DNA of 20,248 bases from a virus: IMG/VR virus record IMGVR_UViG_3300030333_000941, positions 1-20,248 of that record, one strand, 5' to 3'. The translations under genes were made by a program, and so were the position numbers. The notes beneath the pieces were generated by a model that had not been told where the DNA came from, ran no database searches, and saw only the letters and a program-made list of their open reading frames with translations. Numbering within the stretch: position 1 is the stretch's first letter; every line of letters begins with the position of its first letter. Of the stretch, positions 6,474-20,248 are shown in pieces.

Positions 6474-6800
6474 ATGGGAGTCGAAAGCGCGTCCGATTTA
6501 TCCGATTTTTTCCTAACCGATGATTTCGGGATCGCGGCAACCTATACGCCCGACGGCGGAAGCGCTTCAACGATCAACGTTTTATTTGATAACCCGTTCT
6601 CATCCGTTCCCCTGGATACGGGGGAACGGGATGTAGAATCGAACACGCCGACCGCGCTTGCAATATCTTCGGATGTTTCAAGCGTGGCGCATGGCGATGT
6701 GATCGTAATCAACTCGATTACTTACCACATCGTCGGCGTGCAAAAAGATTCAGGAAGTGGATATCAGGGAACGACTCTATTAATGCTTGAGAAGCAATAA
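6474..6800 (+). CDS. Head-tail joining protein, gpFII/Phage_attach-like
   Basis: This 108-aa protein probably sits on the portal ring and forms the surface to which the tail attaches. The pattern SDFFLTDDFGIAATYTP near the N-terminus, followed by a beta-barrel-like series (INVLFDNP, DVIVINSITYHIVGV, TTLLMLEKQ), resembles lambda gpFII relatives. It lies 2 nt after the previous stop and its last base overlaps the next start (AATAATGG). An internal 12-bp hairpin spans 6601-6633. Confidence 0.75.
   Translation: MGVESASDLSDFFLTDDFGIAATYTPDGGSASTINVLFDNPFSSVPLDTGERDVESNTPTALAISSDVSSVAHGDVIVINSITYHIVGVQKDSGSGYQGTTLLMLEKQ
6601..6633. other. Intragenic hairpin, 12-bp stem with one bulge
   Basis: CATCC-GTTCCCC (6601-6612) pairs with GGGGAAC (6621-6627) and GGATG (6629-6633), with G6628 bulged out and an 8-nt loop. 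It lies in the gpFII-like gene, away from any gene boundary. Confidence 0.65.
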
Positions 6801-7252
6801 TGGCAAACCACTTGAGGCGACAAATCCGCGAGCGCATAGCGACACGCGTTACATCGCTTTCTACAACCGGATCGAATGTTTTTCAATCGCGAGCCTATCC
6901 GATTGAAGAATCAAAGCTTCCTTGTTTGCTGGTTTACGATTCCGAGGAAACCGTCACGCTTCAAGCGATGGGCGGAACTCGCGGAGTCGCGTCAGAATTG
7001 ACGGTAAACATTGAAGGATATTGCCAAGGCGGAGACGGTCAAACCGTCATGAATACGCTGGCGGCAATTCAGAAGGAGGTTCAAATCGCAATGCAGGGAG
7101 ATATTAATATCAATAATCTTGCGCGTGATTCGTACCTTACCAGCGCTGACGCGTCTATTAACGCGGAAGCGACGAAACCGACGGGATCGGTTCGGTTATC
7201 GTATCTCGTCGAATATCAATATTTGGAAAACGCGCCTGACGTAGCCGCGTAG
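6800..7252 (+). CDS. Tail terminator, gpU-like minor tail protein
   Basis: This 150-aa protein is placed between the gpFII-like gene and the tail tube gene, as expected for the tail terminator that ends tube growth. It starts with a helical segment (LRRQIRERIATRVTSL), then strands SRAYPIEESKLPCLLVYD and a long central strand-helix (SELTVNIEGYC..TVMNTLAAIQKEVQIAMQGD), ending in VRLSYLVEYQYLE. This alpha/beta order and the C-terminal VEY strand are typical of the lambda gpU/HK97 gp10-like terminator families. The assignment is by position and fold pattern rather than strict motif. Confidence 0.65.
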   Translation: MANHLRRQIRERIATRVTSLSTTGSNVFQSRAYPIEESKLPCLLVYDSEETVTLQAMGGTRGVASELTVNIEGYCQGGDGQTVMNTLAAIQKEVQIAMQGDININNLARDSYLTSADASINAEATKPTGSVRLSYLVEYQYLENAPDVAA

Positions 7253-15485: not shown

Positions 15486-16144
15486 AAGATTTTTATAAGG
15501 CAAAAGGCGTTTTGTTGATTTGCGGAGATAATAAAGATTTTTTTGATTACATAACGCAATGCGACGCGCTTTTAACCGATCCGCCATACGGAATTGGATT
15601 TGGCAAAAAGCACACAAAATGGAGCGCGAATCGTGGTACGCACTTAGGCGAGTGGGACAACATTACGCCAGAAATAAAACCGTTTTTAAAATTTGGCGAA
15701 AAACAAATTATTTGGGGCGGAGAAAGATTCAATTTACCAACTTCAAGAGGTTGGCTTACATGGGTTAAACCTGACGCACCACATACCTTTGCGTCAACCG
15801 AATACGCCTGGACGAATCAAGATCGACCCGCACGGCATTTTACATATCCAATTAGCGCGACAAATCAAGAGCGCGTCGGGCATCCTACACAAAAGCCACT
15901 TGCTTTAATTGAGTGGTGCATTTCTTTTTTACAAGATTCAAAAACTATATGCGACCCATTTATGGGAAGCGGTACGACTGGCGTCGCTTGTATTAATCAC
16001 AACAAAAAATTTATCGGCATTGAAAAAGACAAAAGATATTTTCAAATAGCATTGGATCGAATTAAAAAAGCACAAAAGCAAACTGTTATAAACTTTGAAA
16101 AACAAACTTATCAGCAAACAGATTTTTTAAATGAAAGCGCATAG
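15482..16144 (+). CDS. DNA methyltransferase, beta-class order (N6-adenine-type)
   Basis: A 220-aa enzyme that should transfer a methyl group from S-adenosylmethionine to DNA. Motif IV DPPYG (33-37) comes first, then the conserved HPTQKP (134-139) and motif I DPFMGSGTTG (158-167) with E181, the order of the beta class. DPPY favours N6-adenine. It is short for the class (CcrM about 360 aa), so the target-recognition part is small. The start is ATG 15482, overlapping the upstream stop (ATGA); the longer frame from 15419 adds 21 residues inside the previous gene and is unlikely. No matching endonuclease gene is obvious, though the next gene codes a PD-(D/E)XK protein. The target is unknown. It may protect phage DNA or change host gene expression. 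Confidence 0.9.
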   Translation: MKDFYKAKGVLLICGDNKDFFDYITQCDALLTDPPYGIGFGKKHTKWSANRGTHLGEWDNITPEIKPFLKFGEKQIIWGGERFNLPTSRGWLTWVKPDAPHTFASTEYAWTNQDRPARHFTYPISATNQERVGHPTQKPLALIEWCISFLQDSKTICDPFMGSGTTGVACINHNKKFIGIEKDKRYFQIALDRIKKAQKQTVINFEKQTYQQTDFLNESA

Positions 16145-16514
16145 CCGCCCAATAAAGCGACGCGTTCCTGGTGCGATGAGCAAAACCGAGGAACGCTTCG
16201 CTAATCTCTTAAACGAGTACGCACGCGATAAACAGATCGTCTCGTATGCCTTCGAACCCGTGACGTTTAAACTCGCTGAAGGCGTTCGTTATACGCCCGA
16301 TTTCATGGCGGTCTTCGCAGATCCGACGAGGGGCGTAGCGTTTTACGAGATCAAGGCGAGTGAGTTTCACGCCAGCGGTAAATCGAATCAGATGAACTCG
16401 TTGACGAAACTCAAAGTCGCGGCGCGGACGTTTCCGCAATTTTATTTTTTCAAATGTTATCCGCGAGCCAAGCGAGAGGGCGGATCGTGGGTGATCGAAT
16501 TGATTAAAGTATGA
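16131..16514 (+). CDS. DUF1064 family PD-(D/E)XK nuclease
   Basis: This 127-aa protein matches the DUF1064 pattern: MSKTEERFANLL (E20/E21), YAFEPVTFKL, VRYTPDFMAVF (D57), AFYEIKASEF (E73-x-K75) and the helix LTKLKVAARTFP. The E..PD..ExK arrangement is that of a restriction-type nuclease fold; members are thought to act as Holliday-junction resolvase-like or structure-specific nucleases in phage replication and packaging. It overlaps the methyltransferase by 14 nt and the next gene by ATGA. A restriction partner of the methyltransferase is a less likely alternative. The basic N-terminus (KAHSRPIKRR) suits DNA binding. Confidence 0.85.
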   Translation: MKAHSRPIKRRVPGAMSKTEERFANLLNEYARDKQIVSYAFEPVTFKLAEGVRYTPDFMAVFADPTRGVAFYEIKASEFHASGKSNQMNSLTKLKVAARTFPQFYFFKCYPRAKREGGSWVIELIKV

Positions 16515-17470: not shown

Positions 17471-17523
17471 ATGAATGCAAACTCAAACATAACCGCAATC
17501 GCAAACGAACGGAAAAAAATATG
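17471..17523 (+). other. Possible leader peptide or displaced N-terminus
   Basis: ATG 17471 has a good ribosome site (AAAGGGG, 7-8 nt upstream) and opens MNANSNITAIANERKK, which runs into an A7 run and then, in the -1 frame, into the SSB-like gene starting at ATG 17521. One extra A, or a -1 slip on the A-run, would give a single longer protein. It could otherwise be a leader peptide. Confidence 0.4.
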
Positions 17524-18150
17524 GAATCAACGATCAAAATGGACCCAACGAAAATGTCAAATACTGAATTTCTTAATAGCATTAGTGAAGAAAAAATCGG
17601 TTTCTTTCCTAAAGTCGAAGCGACCCAATCGCAAGGCGCTTACCTTAAAGTTTCAGCGATCGGATCAGCGTATTCTAATCCGCTTAAAATCCGAATCCTC
17701 GGCGCGTTTATTGACGATTCGATGATCGAAGGCTGGCGCGCTTTTAATACAAGCGGAATGCCTATGCGGAAGAAAACTAAAGACGAAATTGATTTAAGTC
17801 AACTCGGAAAAAATAACTTTGGACAGGACGAAAAGCCCATCAAATTTTGGGCTTTTCCGGTCTTTGTCTATGACGAAAGTAACGTGCAAATTTGCGAGAT
17901 ACATCAAGTCGGATTAATGCGTGAATTGGAGCGATTAGGCAATGACCGAAACTGGGGCGATCCGCGCCAATACGATATATCGATAATGAAGACTGGAAGC
18001 GGAAATCGAACCGCGTATCAGGTCACGCCCTCGCAAGCTCAATTCCCGCAAGAACACGTTGACGCGGTTGGAAAAGCGATCGATCAAATCGATTTGCAGA
18101 AATTATTCGTGAACGAGGACCCGTTTCTCACTTCACCGAATGGCGCGTAA
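17521..18150 (+). CDS. Putative single-stranded DNA-binding protein (OB-fold-like)
   Basis: This 209-aa protein matches phage proteins with a strand-rich core and the pattern WAFPVFVYDESNVQICEIHQVGLMRELERL, then DRNWGDPRQYDISIMKTGSGNRTAYQV. These occur next to phage replication genes and are usually taken as OB-fold ssDNA-binding proteins. GWRAFNTSGMPMRKK and KPIKFWAF upstream fit the nucleic-acid-facing strands. The ATG at 17521 has only a weak ribosome site, while the ATG at 17471 has a strong one in another frame. This is the only replication-type protein I can propose here. A 10-11 bp hairpin spans 17829-17859. Confidence 0.55.
   Translation: MESTIKMDPTKMSNTEFLNSISEEKIGFFPKVEATQSQGAYLKVSAIGSAYSNPLKIRILGAFIDDSMIEGWRAFNTSGMPMRKKTKDEIDLSQLGKNNFGQDEKPIKFWAFPVFVYDESNVQICEIHQVGLMRELERLGNDRNWGDPRQYDISIMKTGSGNRTAYQVTPSQAQFPQEHVDAVGKAIDQIDLQKLFVNEDPFLTSPNGA
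17829..17859. other. Intragenic hairpin, 10-bp perfect stem plus one pair
   Basis: GAAAAGCCCA (17830-17839) pairs fully with TGGGCTTTTC (17848-17857); C17829 pairs with G17859 if C17858 is bulged. The loop is TCAAATTT, so ATCAA runs from the stem into the loop. It resembles a terminator stem but is within a gene. Confidence 0.7.
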
Positions 18151-18186
18151 TCGCTCTAATACCAACGCCTAAACGCAATACGCAAC

Positions 18187-18564
18187 ATGGAAAACGAAAA
18201 CGCAAAACCTCTACTCTCTGGTGGGGGGGAAATATATAACCCTAAAGGGTTATATTCCCCCCCATCCAGAGAGTGCGAGAATTCGCAATCGCGAACCGAT
18301 GCCGCGAAACGCACTTTGAGCGCGCTGAAAAAGCGCGTTCGCTTTACGCCTGAAGTGGAAACGCCGAAAGACGAACTGCGCCGATGCGAGGACGGGAATA
18401 TTCGCGGAACGCTGAACGGAATCGAAACGGAAATATTCCAGGGCGAATCAAATCGCCCTGGAGCGATTCCCGGAATTAAATACGATTTCGTGCGATTTAA
18501 AAATCATCCTGCATTCGATGAATACGGAAACTATATTGGAAAGAATAAAATAATAGGCGAGTAA
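18187..18564 (+). CDS. Unknown hairpin-rich gene, 125 aa
   Basis: I do not recognise the protein. It has a low-complexity N-terminus (MENENAKPLLSGGGEIYNPKG), a basic middle (SALKKRVRF) and a C-terminus with KYDFVRFKNHPAFDEYGNYIG. No enzyme motif is visible. What stands out is the DNA: three strong hairpins (18213-18274, 18318-18340, 18437-18462) fill much of the gene, and the first is encoded in frame. The start has no Shine-Dalgarno, so the true start could be lower and the first hairpin could be non-coding. The gene ends with TAATG into the next. The region is a candidate for a replication origin or a cis-acting RNA. Confidence 0.55.
   Translation: MENENAKPLLSGGGEIYNPKGLYSPPSRECENSQSRTDAAKRTLSALKKRVRFTPEVETPKDELRRCEDGNIRGTLNGIETEIFQGESNRPGAIPGIKYDFVRFKNHPAFDEYGNYIGKNKIIGE
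18213..18274. repeat. Near-perfect 28-bp inverted repeat with G7/C7 core
   Basis: ACTCTCTGG (18213-18221) pairs with CCAGAGAGT (18266-18274), T plus seven G (18222-18229) with seven C plus A (18257-18264), and ATATAACCCT (18234-18243) with AGGGTTATAT (18246-18255). Only T18265 and about three bases near 18230-18233 are unpaired; the loop is about TAAA. It is the strongest structure in the window. Confidence 0.85.
18318..18340. other. Intragenic hairpin, 9-bp stem with one G-T pair
   Basis: GAGCGCGCT (18318-18326) pairs with AGCGCGTTC (18332-18340) across GAAAA, using one G-T pair. It is the second of three hairpins in the 18187 gene. Confidence 0.65.
18437..18462. other. Intragenic hairpin, 10-bp perfect stem, loop ATCAAA
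   Basis: TCCAGGGCGA (18437-18446) pairs fully with TCGCCCTGGA (18453-18462). AATCAA runs from the last stem base into the loop. It is the third hairpin in the 18187 gene. Confidence 0.75.
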
Positions 18565-18800
18565 TGGAACAAGCTGAAAGCTACGGAAAAATTACTTGGG
18601 ATAAGAAACATTTATTTTTGCAATTAACGGAATACGAATATTCGTTATTAAAAAAACATTTTAATCAAATGTTTTATAATCATTTACCGATTAAAGATAA
18701 TGTTTACGAAATGAATAGAACGGAGAATGTCGATTTCGTTAAGTTAATTGCAAAAATAAAAGATGATGAACGCGTCTGGTCAAAAAGAAATGAATTATAA
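18564..18800 (+). CDS. Unknown small protein, 78 aa
   Basis: This protein is not recognised. It is A/T-rich in DNA and Lys/Asn/Tyr-rich in protein (EYEYSLLKKHFNQMFYNHLPIKDNVYEMN, then FVKLIAKIKDDERVW), apparently helical and soluble, with no known motif. The start overlaps the previous stop (TAATG), and a 9-bp hairpin lies at 18653-18675 with AATCAA across its loop edge. The base composition differs from the CG-rich neighbours. Confidence 0.6.
   Translation: MEQAESYGKITWDKKHLFLQLTEYEYSLLKKHFNQMFYNHLPIKDNVYEMNRTENVDFVKLIAKIKDDERVWSKRNEL
18653..18675. other. Intragenic hairpin, 9-bp perfect A/T-rich stem
   Basis: AAAACATTT (18653-18661) pairs fully with AAATGTTTT (18667-18675) across TAATC, so AATCAA (18663-18668) runs from the loop into the right arm. 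Confidence 0.6.
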
Positions 18801-19005
18801 ACGATTATTTAACTCGCAAGAACGCTTTATCGGAAAGCGTCAAGGCTGGCGCATCTTCTTAGACAAAGAAGCCAAATATTACGCGCTTAACAAAAACGAT
18901 AAATCGCCAGCGTTCACCTATCGATCTGATCTTAATCGATGGATCGCGAACCGCGACAAACAATTGCGCGATCAGCAAACGTCCAACCAAGCAGAGTTGT
19001 TTTGA
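18790..19005 (+). CDS. Unknown small protein, about 71 aa
   Basis: This protein is not recognised. The sequence MNYKRLFNSQERFIGKRQGWRIFLDKEAKYYALNKNDKSPAFTYRSDLNRWIANRD is basic and aromatic, perhaps a small RNA- or DNA-binding protein. I prefer the ATG at 18790 (11-nt overlap with the previous gene) to the ATG at 18763, which overlaps by 38 nt. The stop overlaps a TTG start of the next gene (TTGA). Confidence 0.6.
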   Translation: MNYKRLFNSQERFIGKRQGWRIFLDKEAKYYALNKNDKSPAFTYRSDLNRWIANRDKQLRDQQTSNQAELF

Positions 19006-19448
19006 CAAACTCCGCTTGTAGGCTGACGCGCATAGGCGATGCGGGTAAGGATCGTTGGAGCAAGAAACGCGGCTTGTATCGTTGCACTTGCGGAACCGAG
19101 AAAGAAATCGACGATCATTCGGTGCGAACTGGTAAAACGAAATCGTGCGGATGCTTGAACCGTGAAAGCTTGCAAGATCGAGCCAAGATGCGCCAAAGAC
19201 AAATTGCTGGCGGACTCGCAATCAAAGGGCGACCAGGATCGTGCAAAGGATTAATTCGAATTTACGAATTCGAATCGAAATACTCGAAACCGCGAGGGCG
19301 CAATCTTTGGGTGACGCTTGAAGAACTAGCGCAAATCTATCATGGAGTTCTTCCCGATCCATTCGCGGAACCGGAACGCTTTGCGCAAGTGCGACCCTAC
19401 AAGAAAACACGCTACAACGGGAACCGCTTCGTCAAGCTTCGCAAGTGA
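19002..19448 (+). CDS. Zinc-ribbon protein, possible HNH/AP2-linked type
   Basis: This 148-aa protein has the ribbon YRCTCGTEKEIDDHSVRTGKTKSCGCLN with C28, C30, C49 and C51 (numbered from the TTG start). This CxC...SCGCL ribbon is common in HNH endonucleases and AP2-like mobile DNA-binding proteins, but no HNH motif is seen. The C-terminus (about 75-140: RPGSCKGLIRIYEFESKYSK.., then LWVTLEELAQIYHG) looks HTH-like. TTG 19002 overlaps the previous stop as TTGA, as at 2354, and keeps the conserved region; the ATG at 18939 would overlap the upstream gene by 67 nt. It is probably a DNA-binding regulator, perhaps of late genes (inference). Confidence 0.6.
   Translation: MTNSACRLTRIGDAGKDRWSKKRGLYRCTCGTEKEIDDHSVRTGKTKSCGCLNRESLQDRAKMRQRQIAGGLAIKGRPGSCKGLIRIYEFESKYSKPRGRNLWVTLEELAQIYHGVLPDPFAEPERFAQVRPYKKTRYNGNRFVKLRK
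19254..19275. other. Intragenic hairpin, 9-bp perfect stem
   Basis: ATTCGAATT (19254-19262) pairs fully with AATTCGAAT (19267-19275) across TACG, in the zinc-ribbon gene. Confidence 0.65.
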
Positions 19449-20236: not shown

Positions 20237-20248
20237 GGTTATTCGCGC
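20237..20248. repeat. Right copy of 12-nt terminal direct repeat (cos candidate)
   Basis: GGTTATTCGCGC, identical to bases 1-12, ends the window 29 nt after the gpZ-like stop. See the left copy. Confidence 0.75.

Follow-up and report, generated by a model that had tools for sequence, protein, structure and literature searches.

The window, by which we mean the whole stretch of DNA analyzed, comprises the 20,248 bases of one virus record, that of a small phage of marine type, in which a small gene containing a strong hairpin follows a gene for a single-stranded DNA-binding protein (SSB)-like product. Genome ends and genes that bear on this locus are as follows.

1 to 12, + strand: left terminal repeat GGTTATTCGCGC (cos-type end), where the window, G001, G004, and G007 start
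16131 to 16514, + strand: TnsA/resolvase-like nuclease gene of the early module (weak matches)
17521 to 18150, + strand: SSB-like gene, always adjoining the hairpin gene (scans, gene order in relatives)
18187 to 18564, + strand: 125-aa ORF containing the hairpin (dN/dS, disorder prediction, alignment)
18939 to 19448, + strand: HNH endonuclease-like gene (PHROG/Pfam scans)
20237 to 20248, + strand: right terminal repeat GGTTATTCGCGC

The related contigs G001, G004, and G007 start at the same sequence as the window, G007 one base earlier; at the other end, G007 shares all 12 terminal bases with the window, and G001 and G004 each have T in place of one C. Because its ends look as they would after assembly of linear DNA carrying cohesive ends of 12 nt, the window most likely represents a whole genome of 20.2 kb bounded by 12-nt terminal repeats of the cos type. 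IMG/VR classes it as being without end repeats, despite the 12-nt direct terminal repeat. All sequences of the window family are metagenomic; the final 11 bases of G002 (L027), AGATCGGAAGA, are Illumina adapter sequence and hence an assembly artefact.

PHROG and Pfam scans of the window identified packaging, head, tail, and lysis genes together with a small early block, the latter encoding an excisionase-like HTH protein, a DNA methyltransferase, the TnsA/resolvase-like nuclease, a PAPS-reductase-like protein, the SSB-like protein, and the HNH protein. No helicase, primase, polymerase, or initiator was recognized in the window by PHROG, Pfam, and further library scans, nor was any of these four enzyme types recognized among the extra (cargo) genes tested in relatives, which encoded methyltransferases, recombinases, Mom-like and queuine-transferase-like proteins, and one protein of unknown function. 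As far as the libraries searched reach, this bears out an earlier note on this DNA, made from the sequence alone, which had stated that no replication enzyme is encoded. Across the early regions of all family genomes, cargo between the lysis and SSB-like genes is freely exchanged, the swapped genes including those for methyltransferases, Mom-like, queuine tRNA-ribosyltransferase-like, and PAPS-reductase-like proteins, serine-type recombinases, and other integrases. In G008 (L014), the conserved HTH protein (gene at 6791-7084, counted with the contig reversed) carries an in-frame insertion of ~20 residues that is absent from relatives.

Within the 125-aa ORF, the hairpin comprises the following elements.

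18213 to 18274, + strand: hairpin of 27 pairs with loop TAAA and covarying arms (folding, alignment of relatives)
18232 to 18234, + strand: 3-nt bulge AT[AG] in the 5' arm, ATA in the window, its position invariant in all versions
18240 to 18249, + strand: core CCCTAAAGGG, common to presumed CRP phage origins, a single occurrence in the window
18265, + strand: 1-nt bulge (T) in the 3' arm, invariant

Positions 18213-18222 pair with 18264 and 18266-18274, 18223-18231 with 18255-18263, and 18235-18242 with 18247-18254, leaving the loop at 18243-18246. The earlier note had described an in-frame palindrome with G7/C7 and two small bulges; all of this was confirmed, including the G7/C7 in the stem, and the ORF was indeed 125 aa long and in frame with the palindrome. 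RNA folding of the 81 nt around the hairpin gave -52.4 kcal/mol (z = -8.7), a value equaled by 0 of 200 shuffles. The hairpin is the strongest local fold in the window (-48.3; next best -31.7) and also the top local fold in every related genome that reaches the gene. An Rfam search returned no match for it. The T run of an intrinsic terminator is absent 3' of the hairpin, where GCGAGAATTCG comes next, and the site is not among the predicted terminators. A programmed frameshift was likewise rejected, since no slippery heptamer was seen by eye 5' of the stem. A hairpin in L056/L060 has a like loop and bulge layout but overlaps the ribosome-binding site of another gene and was judged unrelated; L060, an unrelated phage, has three near-perfect tandem hairpins before a minus-strand gene (L060:1334-1500), the first of which covers the ribosome-binding site of that gene.

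IMG/VR protein searches returned seven close relatives of the hairpin gene, a DNA pattern search added one contig ending just past the hairpin, and an alignment search with the SSB-like protein found a distant relative, L041, whose SSB-like protein is 63% identical. The hairpin was kept in all nine homologs found in IMG/VR phages, its base lying 26 nt past the ATG in each, and, like the gene of the window, each of the eight full-length homologs is exactly 125 codons long. The lower stem of L041 has CCCCTTGGA in place of ACTCTCTGG, and the partner arm has changed too, leaving pairing intact. Covariation counts rest on seven distinct hairpin versions, across which 189 of 189 cells pair and the bulges hold their position. 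Two-sided change occurred in 14 of the 27 pairs, compared with 5.5 ± 1.6 in shuffled controls, which are inflated by relatedness, and 1 to 3 in slid structures, which retain that relatedness and yet fail. A hand alignment gave two-sided change in 15 of 27 pairs, with 188 Watson-Crick pairs and one G-U, almost no intermediates, and many transversions. The loop of L005 is inverted, reading TTTA in place of TAAA. Hence, the hairpin structure is maintained by paired changes, with fixed bulges and loop, inside a translated gene.

The 125-aa protein is made and selected, as judged from a dN/dS of 0.09 over codons 57-125; over hairpin codons 10-29, dN/dS was 0.80. Synonymous difference (pS) was 0.17 in the hairpin codons versus 0.44 in the C-terminal part, and this low value implies that the bases there are constrained by something besides the protein. 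Residues ~9-30 are encoded by the hairpin, residues 1-31 are predicted to be disordered, and residues 57-125 form a conserved domain of unknown fold with a modest, mostly beta prediction. Pfam, PHROG, and NCBIfam returned no match for the protein, and neither a PDB sequence search nor Foldseek of two AlphaFold models (pLDDT 62 and 72) gave anything significant. Structural matches to SSB/PriB (OB-fold) proteins were scattered, with E ~1, and were set aside. That the protein is what remains of the CRP helicase, or of the gene following that helicase, was also rejected (hhalign probabilities of 7.5% and 0.05%, respectively).

The earlier note had counted three hairpins in the gene. All three exist, the two further stems lying at ~18315-18340 and at the site below, but only the first is clearly special.

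18438 to 18461, + strand: third stem named in the earlier note, its pairing lost in L005, L007, and L008; outside the element

Both further stems lose pairing or shift position in relatives. Outside the first hairpin, the gene scored z of ~-2 to -3.6 against synonymous-codon shuffles in the near clade and -0.7 in the distant relative, while 7% of all coding stretches of the window phage score below -2.5. The second and third stems are thus not convincingly conserved as parts of the element and fall within the phage's own background. Homologs that keep the protein and lose the pairing, which the earlier note had named as the outcome that would speak against it, were found for both smaller stems and for none of the versions of the first hairpin. 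For comparison, an in-gene hairpin at ~6594-6704, within the head-closure gene (6474-6800), scores z of -7.8 versus synonymous shuffles and is mismatched or missing in relatives.

Two further features flank the hairpin.

18164 to 18202, + strand: cluster of short [AT]ACG repeats, possible iterons, at 18164, 18172, 18179, 18193, and 18199
18513 to 18812, no strand assigned: AT-rich stretch, a possible unwinding region, the most AT-rich 300 nt of the window

In nine of nine genomes, [AT]ACG occurs four to six times per 60 nt just upstream of the hairpin (genome mean 0.7-0.9), and the stretch downstream is among the four most AT-rich 200-nt stretches. Genes in the latter are mostly not homologous between the nine genomes. 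Both features were noticed after looking and so count as suggestive only. Within the AT-rich stretch, 18611-18628 and 18743-18760 are the arms, 114 nt apart, of a perfect 18-nt inverted repeat in a gene found only in the window. The SSB-like and hairpin genes occur together in all records reaching both, and the pair is intact in G002 and G003 although their terminase, capsid, or tail genes are of other lineages. A small ORF in another frame (17471-17725; MNANSNITAIANERKK...) overlaps the start of the SSB-like gene; similar ORF starts (MN..I..IANE...) occur in L008, L041, and L044, and the ORF perhaps encodes a conserved leader peptide. GC skew, which the earlier note had proposed as a check for an origin at the hairpin, showed no switch in the window, also at fourfold-degenerate sites. 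DnaA-like boxes were isolated ones only, none of them at the hairpin.

The closest isolated relatives, as judged by their lambda-type TerL (~49% identity), are Roseobacter CRP phages. Their early block runs nuclease, SSB, RepA-type helicase, followed in CRP-823, CRP-811, and CRP-831 by an annotated gap. A covariance-model search of 305 kb with the hairpin gave one weak match (E 0.22), in CRP-823, and this sits in the 186-nt gap right behind the helicase gene (L017:3166-3351). Each of the family genomes checked has a single copy of the core 10-mer, within the hairpin, and CRP-823 has one copy as well. The CRP-823 gap is AT-rich (0.67 versus 0.48 for the genome), and CTACAAA occurs there 11 times, counting both orientations, on either side of the core AACCCTTTAGGGTT; the CRP-811 gap is the same. 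In the CRP-831 gap (L067:3860-4034), 10 copies of GTATAAA replace CTACAAA while the core is unchanged. Directly behind the helicase gene of CRP-406 lie GGCTGGA repeats with the core AACCCTAAGGGTT, one base shorter. The concerted replacement of iterons from CRP-823 to CRP-831 suggests that they co-evolve with an initiator that binds DNA. Repeats that vary together around a constant palindrome, downstream of a replicative helicase, are what is expected of an iteron origin, and we infer that the CRP gap, with its iterons and core, is the CRP replication origin. Beyond the CRP phages, the core pattern picked out five unrelated contigs, and in two of them, L053 and L054, the core directly follows an AAA_25 (RepA-like) helicase gene and is accompanied by GGGGTG repeats. 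Rhodoferax phage P26218 and Rhizobium phage RHph_Y3_1 each have a strong hairpin with a related core behind the helicase. Several other RepA-type phages looked at had no such hairpin behind the helicase.

Judged from sequence, the hairpin of the window occupies a slot matching the CRP core gap. As in the CRP-822-type gaps (CRP-823, CRP-811, CRP-831, and CRP-406), three of which are AT-rich, the same core palindrome (one base shorter in CRP-406) lies after the SSB/helicase block and ahead of the late genes. Unlike those gaps, which are noncoding, with strong iterons and an adjacent helicase, the site in the window is coding, has weak repeats only, and has no recognized helicase. The bulges of the CRP hairpin are also placed differently, and the SSB-like protein of the window is not recognizably homologous to the CRP SSB. 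Only records with a DNA helicase, capsid, and TerL were taken as members of the CRP-822-type family (PMC12629253), a requirement that would leave out helicase-less genomes such as the window. The window, which shares TerL at the above identity and has no recognized helicase, falls outside the family.

Of the options raised in the earlier note, a replication origin is favored, because the hairpin corresponds in its core and its genomic position to the iteron-rich gap that follows the RepA-type helicase of CRP phages, even though no skew switch was found. We consider it somewhat more probable than all other readings together that the hairpin is a cis-acting DNA element, an initiation hairpin of the phage replication origin that was absorbed into the start of a small early gene. 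In such an origin, the upstream [AT]ACG repeats would act as iterons, the AT-rich stretch downstream would open as the unwinding region, and the SSB-like protein would coat the opened single strands. By analogy with pRN1 and RSF1010, the bulged hairpin on SSB-coated single-stranded DNA might then mark the loading site of a helicase or primase. As none is recognizably encoded by these phages, this enzyme would be supplied by the host or a co-infecting phage, and the 125-aa protein perhaps recruits it. Several observations count against an origin: besides the missing skew switch, the different bulge placement in the CRP hairpin, and an SSB-like protein that is not recognizably homologous to the CRP one, these phages are without the RepA helicase that accompanies the core in CRP phages, the constant 26-nt spacing to the ATG is more directly explained by a function in the mRNA, and the hairpins behind other RepA-type helicases gave a mixed picture. 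A more specific version, which we regard as rather unlikely, is that this family of complete 20-kb phages dropped its replicative helicase and kept a helicase-type origin inside a protein gene, taking the helicase from the host or from co-infecting CRP-type relatives (replication piracy), with the 125-aa protein as adaptor to the hairpin.

The main rival, possible though clearly less probable than an origin, is an element acting in the mRNA, whereby the hairpin in the transcript of the SSB-like/125-aa operon controls that operon through ribosome pausing at ~codon 5, protein binding at the bulges, or an RNase III cut. Consistent with this, the ATG spacing is fixed in all homologs, TGGGG is found at ORF nt 36-40 in all of them, L041 included, the bulges are invariant, the fold remains at ~-41 to -49 kcal/mol across relatives, and the reading frame is always open. 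The sole non-Watson-Crick pair is also a G-U on the coding strand, but a single G-U is little evidence. A function in the mRNA leaves unexplained both the core shared with the noncoding gap behind the CRP helicase and the AT-rich stretch, and neither a slippery site nor a terminator tail was found. Of the structured RNA overlapping a gene that the earlier note had suggested, a conserved structure overlapping the gene is well supported, and this structure may act as RNA or as DNA.

It is improbable that the palindrome has no function and owes both its formation and its perfect pairing to template switching as the DNA replicates, being tolerated because a disordered protein leader is encoded there. 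The two-sided changes with almost no intermediates and many transversions would be expected of that process, and the inverted loop of L005 is a template-switch signature (PMC8794818). Both bulges persist, however, although the mechanism tends to erase mismatches, and the in-frame 3-nt bulge, which could vanish without damage to the frame, is kept. Moreover, the hairpin is lost in no homolog, its synonymous sites are constrained, and the comparable in-gene hairpin at ~6594-6704 of the same phage decays in relatives. Template switching thus probably contributes to the joint arm changes, as the inverted L005 loop indicates, but is not the whole story, given the kept bulges and constrained synonymous sites; under the origin reading, it may supply the mutations through which the two arms change jointly. 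Insertion in frame of a mobile palindromic element (RPE, REP, or MITE type), the Rickettsia-like option of the earlier note, would account for an in-frame palindrome encoding a disordered segment but is highly improbable, as there is one copy per genome, in one gene at a fixed distance from the ATG, no copy by pattern or protein in 84,980 bacterial and archaeal genomes, and no homolog without the palindrome.

If the origin reading is correct, the hairpin would provide a concrete origin for tailed phages without a recognizable replication enzyme. Comparison with the CRP phages further suggests that origins beside RepA-type helicases in marine phages may be marked by a hairpin with a CCCTAAAGGG core, around which the iterons are free to change. 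In either case, the locus is a clear instance of nucleic-acid structure and protein coding on the same bases, with two-sided changes at at least 14 pairs.

Several known systems resemble the window in part. Microbacterium cluster EE phage KillerTomato (OR159653) is likewise linear and small (~17 kb), with an HNH gene at its right end and no replication enzyme annotated; it is without a comparable in-gene hairpin, its strongest hairpin lying between convergent genes. Rickettsia palindromic elements are in-frame palindromes; unlike these dispersed elements, the window hairpin occupies a single site. RNA hairpins maintained by template switching show simultaneous compensatory changes and loop inversion (PMC8794818), which describes a mutational mechanism and not a function, and in the window family the bulges are kept. 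At RSF1010 oriV, the ssiA and ssiB hairpins are exposed by unwinding and used for priming (PMC4234260); repeats and small hairpins are common to both loci, but RSF1010 encodes RepA, RepB', and RepC, none of which was found in the window. The stem-loop of the pRN1 origin is needed for replication and conserved in structure, not sequence, and such a stem-loop is also reported for Bordetella phage BIP-1 (PMC4234260). The pRN1 stem-loop, of ~100 nt with a 58-nt loop, is noncoding and lies behind the primase-polymerase/helicase gene, whereas the window hairpin lies behind an SSB-like gene rather than behind a primase/helicase gene of its own. As at the pRN1-type origin, where the stem-loop sits between better conserved flanks, the structure of the window hairpin is kept while its sequence varies.
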